A program made the position numbers and the translations under genes. From assembly GCA_020062745.1 (NCBI GenBank), contig JAGUVT010000002.1:1-50501 (forward strand): 50,501 nt of DNA, in the 5' to 3' direction. The notes beneath the pieces are model-generated. The model ran no database searches, was not told the origin of the DNA, and worked only from the letters and a program-made list of their open reading frames with translations. The DNA is from Deltaproteobacteria bacterium. Its GTDB lineage: Bacteria; Bacillota; Desulfotomaculia; Desulfotomaculales; JAGUVT01. This document shows positions 47,381 through 50,501 of this stretch, in pieces; position 1 is the first letter of the stretch, and every line of letters starts with the position of its first letter.

Positions 47381-47425
47381 TGGTGGGCACGGCTGGTTTC
47401 GAACCAGCGACCTCTTGAATGTGAG
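47381..47425 (-). other. 3' fragment of tRNA-Val(CAC), probable att site
   Basis: Read on the minus strand the 45 bases give the anticodon loop CTCACAT (anticodon CAC), the 3' side of the anticodon stem TCAAG, variable loop AGGTC, a perfect T arm GCTGG-TTCGAAA-CCAGC, the acceptor strand CGTGCCC, discriminator A and CCA. The 5' half is absent: the bases before the loop (TGTAA) do not pair with TCAAG. Similarity thus begins exactly at the anticodon loop, the usual limit of tRNA attachment sites. The element lies to the right and a full tRNA should end it there. Confidence 0.8.
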
Positions 47426-47437
47426 TTACAAGGCGGG

Positions 47438-48346: not shown

Positions 48347-48495
48347 CTGAAGGCTTCCTCCTCTCTAATTCGGCGAATTTTATATGCCTTCCAGGGTTTC
48401 TTGACCCAAAGCCACCCGGCTTTGAGCCAAAAACCAGGCCGGGAATGTTTTCTTTCTGTTGTGGGTATTGAGTGAATATCCTGGTTTACATATTT

Positions 48496-48524
48496 ACTAT
48501 AAACGTAAAATAACGGCAAGTCAA
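48496..48524 (-). promoter_or_regulatory. Strong sigma-A promoter of the hicBA pair
   Basis: Minus strand: TTGACT (48524-48519), 17-base spacer, TATAGT (48501-48496). Back to back with a plus-strand promoter only 13 bases away. Confidence 0.78.
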
Positions 48525-48537
48525 ATGCTTTTAAGGG

Positions 48538-48566
48538 TTGACAGCCAGAGTATGGTATTGTAAAAT
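48538..48566 (+). promoter_or_regulatory. Strong sigma-A promoter reading into the structured RNA
   Basis: TTGACA (48538-48543), 17-base spacer, TAAAAT (48561-48566). Transcription should begin near 48573. Confidence 0.8.
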
Positions 48567-48572
48567 TTAGCC

Positions 48573-48760
48573 GTGGGGTAATGTACCTGTTCCCCTAGGG
48601 AGTCTCGTTTAGGCAGGCGGGAGTACCCCTTGTGTTATAGGCTGCCGAACAGAATATCGGGCTAGCGTACCAGACCCAAAGGTACAAGGATAATCTGTGG
48701 CGCAAACCAGTCTTACGAGGTTGTTAGCCTCTAAGTTGTGTTTGCGTCTTTTGGTTTTTT
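48573..48760 (+). ncRNA. Candidate structured noncoding RNA of unknown class, about 190 nt
   Basis: No coding frame with a start signal fills this stretch, yet it has its own promoter and a terminator-like end. Stems visible: GGGG/CCCC (48575-48578, 48592-48595); GGCAG/CTGCC (48612-48616, 48642-48646) around an inner GGG-AGTA-CCC; GTACC/GGTAC (48667-48671, 48681-48685); and a closing CGCAAAC/GTTTGCG (48701-48707, 48740-48746) that encloses GAGG/CCTC and is followed by TCTTTTGGTTTTTT. A longer alternative stem, TGTTAGCCTC/GAGGCTAACA (48722-48731, 48774-48783), would break the terminator, as in an attenuator for the excisionase-like gene. It matches no riboswitch or RNA family I can name. Confidence 0.5.
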
Positions 48761-48825
48761 GTGGGGGGTTTTCGAGGCTAACAGCCTTGGAAATCCCCCA
48801 TTTTTATTTGGATAGGAGGGCAAAA

Positions 48826-49332
48826 ATGGAAAATCGTAAACTCGAAAACTTACCCGACATTCTGGAATTGACCGATTTAGCAGCATTCTTACACTGCGGC
48901 TACCGGACGGCGCTTGTGCTGGTTCACCGGAAAGACTTCCCGGCGCTATAGGTGGGGCGGCGCTGGAAGGTGAGCAAAAGCGCATTAGTCCAGTGGCTTA
49001 CAACGGGAAAGAAGTTAAAACAAAACCCCCCGGCCGGCCGCCGGGGGGGAAAGTGGGTGAAAACTGTGCTTGCTAAAAGTATAGCACAAAGTAGTGTTTT
49101 TGATAATGCTAAAAACGTTGCAATTGAAATGGTATGCGAGCGCTACTTAAATCTTACACTGCGCTTAAGCGGCAGAAACTTAGTTGCAAAGTGTCCGTTT
49201 CACGAAGACCGGCGGCCCTCTTTCGTGGTCTGGCCGGCTTCGGGGCGGTGGAAGTGTTTCGGGTGTGGTGCTGCCGGCGGAGCCGTTGCCGGCGGAGCTT
49301 ATCCCTGCCCCGCTCCGACCCTGGGCGGTTGA
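48826..49332 (+). pseudogene. Excisionase-like HTH and CHC2 zinc-finger (primase-like) gene with an internal amber codon
   Basis: ATG at 48826 has AGGAGGG upstream. The frame encodes LPDILELTDLAAFLHCGY and VHRKDFPAL, then TAG (48949-48951), then VGRRWKVSKSALVQWL: together a helix-turn-helix of the excisionase/MerR-like type, with the stop at a position usually Lys or Arg. Further on in the same frame is a CHC2 zinc finger (CPFHEDRRPSF, KCFGCGAAGG, about residues 120-150), as in DnaG-type primases. The frame ends at 49332 inside sequence that codes for DUF3987 in another frame. Probably two genes joined by decay. Confidence 0.65.
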
Positions 49333-49825
49333 CGTGGCGGAGCGGATGCAATGCCCGTTTGAGTTTGCGGCGGTAGCAGCTATGGTTATAGCCGCTGCAG
49401 TTATCGGCGCCGGCTGTGGGATCAAACCGAAACAGAAAGACGACTGGCTTGTAGTCCCCAACTTGTGGGGCGGCATCGTGGCCCGACCCTCTATGCTGAA
49501 AACCCCGCTACTTGCAGAGATGATGAAGCCCCTAGCCCGGCTAGAGCTGGCGGCAAAAGGAAGGCCAAAAAACGGCATACCGGCCCCGCGCATGGAGGAT
49601 GTGAAACAGCGTTATTTAGACCTCGAAGAGCCGGAAGCACTCGTGCGCAGGCGGTTCAAAACGAACGATTCAACAATCGAAAAACTGGGTGAGTTGATGA
49701 ACGAAAACCCCAGGGGGGTCTTACTGTTTCGGGATGAGCTTATCGGCCTGCTCTGTTCATGGGACCGGGAAGACCGCAGCTTCTATCTTGAAGCGTGGAA
49801 ACGGATTCCGGGCGTTTTCGTTTGA
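49268..49825 (+). pseudogene. DUF3987-family gene, truncated at both ends
   Basis: From about 49268 the frame reads LPAELIPAPLRPWAVDVAER, MQCPFEFAAVAAMV, DDWLVVPNLWGGIVARPSML and VLLFRDELIGLLCSW, the N-terminal part of DUF3987 replication-type proteins found on phages and plasmids. A full protein is about 450 residues or more; here the match stops at SFYLEAWK and a TGA follows at 49825. The GTG at 49184 opens the frame but its first 28 residues are the CHC2 region in the wrong frame. The ATPase-like motif region is partly kept. Confidence 0.7.
49272..49298 (+). repeat. Tandem 15-bp repeat at the primase/DUF3987 joint
   Basis: TGCCGGCGGAGC occurs at 49272-49283 and again at 49287-49298. It lies where the zinc-finger frame gives way to the DUF3987 frame, so it may mark a deletion or a slippage duplication. 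Confidence 0.75.
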
Positions 49826-50026: not shown

Positions 50027-50314
50027 ATGGCACAATCTGTTAATGTAAATATCCGTATGGACAAAGATTTAAAAAAACAAGCTGAACAGCTTTTTGCAGA
50101 GTTTGGAATGAATATGACAACAGCATTTACTATATTCGCAAAAGCCGTTGTTAGGGAAAGAAAAATACCTTTTGAAATATCCGCTCATGCTGATGATTTT
50201 TACAATGAATATAATCAAGCAAGACTTAAAAAGGCTATTGACGCACTCAACGAAGGTAAGGGGAAATTTATAACAAAAACAATGGAAGAATTGGAGAACA
50301 TGGAAAATGAATAA
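50027..50314 (+). CDS. RelB/DinJ-family antitoxin
   Basis: 95 residues. The ribbon-helix-helix N-terminus reads VNVNIRMDKDLKKQAEQLF and EFGMNMTTAFTIFAKAVV, typical of RelB/DinJ. The C-terminal half, which wraps the toxin, is acidic. ATG at 50027 has AAAGGAG eight bases upstream; the frame opens at 49994 but that lies in the operator. Markedly AT-rich compared with the DUF3987 gene, so probably acquired separately. Confidence 0.9.
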   Translation: MAQSVNVNIRMDKDLKKQAEQLFAEFGMNMTTAFTIFAKAVVRERKIPFEISAHADDFYNEYNQARLKKAIDALNEGKGKFITKTMEELENMENE

Positions 50315-50501
50315 TATTTCTTTTCTCCAAGAAGCATGGGAAGATTACCTATATTGGCAAACTCAAGACAAAAAGACTTTAAAACGCATAAATCAATTAC
50401 TGAAAGATATTATTCGCAATCCTTATGACGGTATCGGCAAACCAGAGCCTTTAGGAGAAAATCTATCGGGCTTTTGGAGCAGACGAATTGACGAAAAGAA
50501 C
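50307..50501 (+). CDS. YoeB/Txe-family toxin (partial)
   Basis: The first 65 codons are in the window; the gene runs off its right edge. The ATG overlaps the end of the antitoxin gene by eight bases. ISFLQEAWEDYLYWQTQDKK, IRNPYDGIGKPEPLG and LSGFWSRRID are the family signature of YoeB, a ribosome-dependent mRNA interferase. The catalytic His-Tyr end (usually HRLVY) would be just outside. Confidence 0.9.
   Translation, partial: MNNISFLQEAWEDYLYWQTQDKKTLKRINQLLKDIIRNPYDGIGKPEPLGENLSGFWSRRIDEKN

Follow-up and report, generated by a model that had tools for sequence, protein, structure and literature searches.

The gene-free segment that separates a strong promoter from the first regulatory gene in what is left of a small integrative element, near position 48573 of the window (the whole 50,501-nucleotide stretch analysed, which is also the whole of contig C42 of a Bacillota-type genome in 148 contigs), appears from its sequence to be an attenuation-type leader, a reading to which a probability of roughly 55% can be given. 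Such a leader would hold the element's regulatory and replication operon off until the terminators are read through. It would form the 5' end of an HTH_17-CHC2-DUF3987 operon carried by a small, phage-satellite-like element of the kind that integrates at tRNA sites. The features of the leader are as follows.

48538 to 48566, forward strand: sigma-70-type promoter, TTGACA-17-TAAAAT, 11/12; transcript start expected near 48573
48573 to 48698, forward strand: upstream leader RNA, with possible hairpins at 48575-48629 and 48644-48701
48697 to 48951, forward strand: frame with a GTG start that runs through T1 and T2 without a stop and is in phase with HTH_17; AAGGA at 48686-48690
48699 to 48748, forward strand: terminator hairpin T1, -25.6 kcal/mol, z -5.2, with a U-rich tail at 48749-48760
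48716 to 48731, forward strand: 5' strand of an alternative stem of 16 consecutive pairs, within T1
48761 to 48801, forward strand: terminator hairpin T2, 19 pairs, -31.9 kcal/mol, z -6.1, followed by TTTTATTT
48774 to 48789, forward strand: 3' strand of the same 16 consecutive pairs, within T2
48826 to 48951, forward strand: start of the HTH_17 (excisionase-like) gene, with an in-frame TAG at 48949-48951, codon 42

The arrangement is that of a transcription attenuator, with an intrinsic terminator between the promoter and the first gene. An earlier note on this DNA had described a near-consensus promoter followed by a stretch without genes, and both descriptions hold, the promoter at 11 of 12 positions and the stretch because none of the frames of 48573-48800 matches Pfam or PHROG, which also counts against a coding relic within the leader. 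The several nested stems seen by that note fare less well, as the upstream 126 nt (48573-48698) fold no better than their dinucleotide shuffles (z +0.16); the hairpin 48644-48702 taken alone reaches z -1.9 and the segment 48573-48632 z -0.9, and the strong structure lies elsewhere, in T1 and T2. Of the 7-bp closing stem and T-rich run proposed there, the U-rich end after a hairpin stands, but the hairpin, T1, is actually about 50 nt long, and T2, which is stronger than T1, is an addition. Two GTACC segments and one GGTAC are present as described, but these are mere 5-mers and their competition would be weak. A 9-nt sequence, GACCCAAAG, occurs both in the D2 loop (48673-48681) and in the HicB leader region (48403-48411), within chance; the divergent HicB transcript would carry the complement of GACCCAAAG. 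Direct repeats in the leader do not exceed chance and the gene downstream is HTH_17, so that the leader does not fit a type III toxin-antitoxin RNA with its tandem repeats, terminator and toxin gene.

T1 and T2 are complementary beyond chance, and the alternative stem connects their apices. An equally good stem arose once among 2000 shuffles of T1, once among 300 shuffles of the entire leader and never among 960 neighbouring window segments. The 10-bp alternative stem of the earlier note is thus real and longer, at 16 bp, but it never beats the terminators in free RNA. At every transcript length tested, computed energies favour T1 first and T2 after it; at 48790 the 16-bp stem is about 4.5 kcal/mol worse, and with T2 complete it is worse by at least 25 kcal/mol. 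As a mutually exclusive antiterminator, the stem is favoured only with the 5' arm of T1 (48698-48712) blocked: when this arm is kept unpaired and polymerase stands at 48790, the stem becomes the best fold (-29.4 kcal/mol), yet with T2 complete T2 still wins at equilibrium (-38.4). The palindromes in the leader might instead act at the level of DNA, the two copies of GAGGYTNNNAGCCTY being operator, recombination or origin sites. The pattern GAGGYTNNNANCCTY is indeed matched at 3 places in the window, 2 of them in the leader, where 0.04 were expected, a count that is biased because the pattern was derived from this same sequence. That each palindrome falls exactly within a hairpin apex, with a T run after the hairpin, and that the GAGGYTNNNAGCCTY-type pattern is not seen in related leaders, makes a role as DNA very improbable.

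Under the attenuation reading, RNA polymerase would start near 48573 and in vivo would normally be released at T1 or T2, as far as the sequence can indicate, so that the product would be a short transcript, about 190-235 nt long, and the operon would stay off. T2 ends 25 nt ahead of the HTH_17 start codon, before the ribosome-binding site, which leaves no space for a separate promoter, so that transcription from 48538 would arrive only via both terminators and expression of the operon would require their read-through. By computed energies the 16-bp stem would couple T1 and T2, both terminators winning in undisturbed RNA. A ribosome, protein or RNA on the 5' arm of T1 would block T1, and the strand of T1 thereby freed could, from the same energies, capture the emerging 5' part of T2 and delay its formation; a single event at this arm could in this way weaken T1 and T2 together. 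Since T2 wins at equilibrium once complete, the effect of the stem would be kinetic. One possible trigger is a ribosome on the GTG frame at 48697, a frame that could be open by chance and is estimated to stay so over this length about once in eight cases, which leaves the ribosome as a candidate. In having a terminator ahead of the ribosome-binding site and an alternative stem that uses its strands, the leader resembles classical attenuators; it differs in its two serial terminators, in a stem that spans both and needs an outside trigger, and in having no credible leader peptide with regulatory codons, the short open reading frames present being free of codon runs.

The earlier note had offered a choice between a stand-alone RNA and a switch, of which the switch is the better reading, given that the gene would be reached from 48538 only through two terminators and that the order of promoter, leader, terminator and gene recurs in independent elements. 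The two are not exclusive, for a switch of this kind would also yield an RNA that stops at T1. Taken by itself, a small RNA that acts in trans, about 190 nt long, stopping at T1 with T2 as a back-up and pairing with targets such as the T2 of a full-length leader, is unlikely, if deserving of serious attention. It would have its own promoter and terminator, the T1 RNA could form a duplex with T2 in trans (-31 kcal/mol, computed), and the P4 CI RNA and IsrK provide precedents (PMC4825925). Set against these points are the enclosure of the complementary parts within stable hairpins, an upstream 126 nt neither conserved nor structured beyond chance, and the lack of a match in Rfam.

Comparison with known RNA families leads in the same direction as the earlier note, which could name no family for the segment: Rfam covariance models, searched at gathering thresholds and at E up to 10, returned chance matches alone, mostly to eukaryotic families. 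Homologues of the leader were sought by blastn and single-sequence covariance in up to about 650 genomes, and in Rfam, phages and plasmids. The blastn comparison with 200 relatives, phages and plasmids yielded no homologue and two genome matches of 20-22 nt, one of them inside a transposase gene (L003), and a covariance model of 48573-48702 built from the single sequence, and so of limited reach, recovered only itself among 249 relatives, 399 genomes of the phylum and 46 other loci. Exact patterns from D2 and T1 are absent from the viral contigs, and the genome itself holds no second copy of the leader. With no homologue and an upstream part no better than shuffles, the sequence gives no support to a conserved family of structured RNA; the missing homologues count against such a family but say nothing against a leader that diverges fast. 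A riboswitch for a metabolite, or another RNA of known family, would account for aptamer-like hairpins followed by a terminator ahead of the ribosome-binding site. Since Rfam offers no match at gathering and no credible one up to E 10, homologues were not found and the upstream hairpins do not surpass shuffles, this explanation is scarcely plausible. A related genome carries a match to the abiF RNA (RF03085) above gathering (L017:477-513, reverse strand).

The element to which the leader belongs occupies the window from about 47.4 kb onward, in the order tRNA 3'-end fragment and HicB/HicA-type genes (both on the reverse strand), leader, HTH_17, CHC2 fragment, DUF3987 fragment and RelB/YoeB. 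Its features outside the leader are these.

47384 to 47432, reverse strand: 3'-half fragment of a tRNA gene (T arm and acceptor end), 79% match to a tRNA-Val gene of the same genome
47438 to 47681, reverse strand: second HicB-like frame, broken
48346 to 47937, reverse strand: HicB/HicA-type pair
48496 to 48524, reverse strand: divergent promoter-like site facing the HicB/HicA genes, 10/12
48952 to 49332, forward strand: frame with the remainder of HTH_17 and a truncated CHC2 primase zinc finger (PF01807, E 4.9e-15)
49184 to 49825, forward strand: DUF3987 relic, truncated and frame-shifted (PF13148, E 3.7e-24)

The tRNA fragment at 47384-47432 is a probable attachment-site remnant. Beyond its TAG the HTH_17 frame runs on to about 49089, and the gene matches PF12728 (E 1.3e-9) when the stop is read through, and the PHROG excisionase (E 2.8e-5); no close relatives of the protein were found in viral and GTDB contigs. 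This stop at codon 42, together with CHC2 and DUF3987 fragments that are both truncated and out of frame, indicates that the element is decaying, and with its first gene broken and its replication genes reduced to relics the leader, or switch, is probably a remnant in this genome. No integrase for the element was seen on contig C42. Contig C147 of the same genome matches segment 47431-47692 of the window at 93% identity. At the other end, a RelB/YoeB toxin-antitoxin pair (50027-50501) runs off the contig; the final 99 bases of the window recur at the end of contig C105 and the final 17 bases of the window open contig C147, an assembly repeat. Another element of the same genome (L047, G000:C148, 496-1507) has an uninterrupted CHC2 gene that is 88% identical to window 49017-49279, in an operon that opens with a small open reading frame and a different HTH_17 gene and lacks such a leader.

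A more interesting result than the window leader is the recurrence of its layout in unrelated elements. Relatives were reached via the HTH_17 protein and the CHC2 primase, and both strands were scanned for a promoter-like site (at least 10/12) with a strong terminator (below -20 kcal/mol) within 50-250 nt and then a ribosome-binding site and open reading frame. Element-related loci amounting to 683 kb contained 201 promoter-like sites, of which 11 rows had the strong terminator and 7 the ribosome-binding site and frame as well. These 7 rows represent 4 independent places, the window, G013 (L050:3750), G031 (L092:1006) and G195 (L112:845), in each case where the HTH_17 gene of an HTH_17-CHC2 element begins. 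In 103 viral contigs (916 kb), which were chosen by an unrelated 14-mer, TTAGTGAGCCAGAG from the G195 leader, and served only as control, the layout followed 0 of 327 promoter-like sites. A further 80 CHC2 loci (451 kb) added 1 case among 140 sites, on a viral contig (L277:2322-2688), where the promoter scores 12/12, the leader measures about 80 nt and the strong terminator is followed by an XRE-type first gene directly before CHC2. Across 1.13 Mb of element-related loci, then, all 5 independent layouts stand where a CHC2-primase operon has its first regulatory gene.

The per-promoter comparison is modest by Fisher's test (p 0.02; p 0.06 with the added loci), and because the element loci were picked by homology to the HTH_17 and CHC2 genes themselves, features near these genes are favoured in counts that are small. 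The positional argument, that all 5 fall within a few per cent of the searched sequence, is stronger, and was framed after the first cases. This evidence bears on the view that the two terminators merely insulate the operon from upstream transcription, with the promoter match and alternative stem incidental in decaying DNA. The operon has decayed, gene borders commonly carry strong terminators and the stem is not favoured energetically on its own, all as insulation would have it. Insulation would leave aside the strong promoter that lies upstream of T1 and T2 with no gene between, the failure to find a promoter between T2 and the HTH_17 start, and an order that is recurrent at these operons and rare elsewhere (none of the 327 control sites), and it is accordingly rather doubtful.

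The closest relative, in G013 (UBA2203, L050), has a tRNA fragment, promoter, gene-free leader, 19-bp terminator with U tract, ribosome-binding site, HTH_17, CHC2 and DUF3987, and its far end carries tRNA-Lys. In G031 and G195 the HTH_17 gene and an integrase adjoin the CHC2 gene, and the G031 element terminates at tRNA-Pro; the layout therefore occurs also in apparently intact elements, not in relics alone. In G062 the operon's first gene stands behind a 12/12 promoter and two weaker terminators in tandem. What the leaders of these elements have in common with that of the window is the layout; they are unrelated in sequence, and most are without a comparable alternative stem. No match to an HTH_3 repressor was found within the window, G013, G031 and G195 elements; weak HTH_3 matches in G057 and G062 lie at the gene preceding HTH_17.

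The immunity leader of phage P4 and IsrK offer functional parallels. In P4, the CI RNA pairs with seqA and seqC, causing premature termination and turning the satellite replication operon off (PMC4825925), and translation of eta across the terminator prevents termination (PMC10111431), much as a ribosome on the GTG frame might do in the window. The leader in the window would share with P4 a constitutive promoter, a short untranslated RNA, premature termination and complementary leader segments (PMC4825925, PMC10111431). It differs in having two intrinsic terminators directly before the first gene, and in placing the complementary segments inside the terminators, where pairing would oppose rather than cause termination. 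The Rfam profiles for RNAs of the P4-immunity type are C4 and isrK (PMC10111431), and neither matches the window or related loci at gathering; the layout would thus work like P4 immunity without being a member of that group. IsrK of Gifsy-1 has short and read-through isoforms, one promoter giving a terminated RNA and a read-through mRNA with complementary segments (PMC4825925), as would hold for the leader in the window; IsrK has no sequence or Rfam match here and different genes lie downstream.

In gene content the closest parallel is with PICMIs and PICIs (int, alpA, primase). The PICMI model comprises an integrase, PF05930/PF12728 (AlpA/HTH_17) and a DUF3987/DUF5906 primase (PMC10803314). 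These too are small integrative elements with HTH_17 followed by CHC2/DUF3987 replication genes, of which the window has HTH_17, CHC2 and DUF3987 relics with no integrase seen on its contig; the Bacillota elements lie at tRNA genes, as opposed to fis for the Vibrio elements, and have no known helper. How helpers activate the early (alpA-primase) genes of PICMIs is stated to be an open question (PMC10803314), and a promoter with strong terminators before an operon of the alpA-primase type, in elements with no detectable HTH_3 repressor, offers a concrete candidate for control by read-through. Should the short RNAs prove to act in trans, this would be immunity by RNA in elements that do not belong to the P4 group. 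It may even be conjectured, as a decidedly improbable generalization, that a group of small satellite-like elements of Bacillota does without a protein repressor and controls its excision and replication operon through serial terminators in a leader RNA that diverges fast, while the RNA released at them provides element-specific immunity in trans.

Some leaders have features of their own. Those of G195 (L112:931-993) and G508 (L152:1464-1557) have in common repeats of about 39 nt (GAGCCAGAG..GAGCC), which flank a hairpin that differs in sequence with its pairing kept. In G508 a small zinc-ribbon-like open reading frame precedes the repeats and an XRE gene follows the terminator; leaders of this kind need not, therefore, all be purely non-coding. 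Upstream of position 1501 in L026, a strong terminator (-26.4) lies about 190 nt ahead of an HTH_17 match, and CCTGTGGCC, farther upstream, is complementary to the 5' arm of that terminator, a possible further antiterminator.
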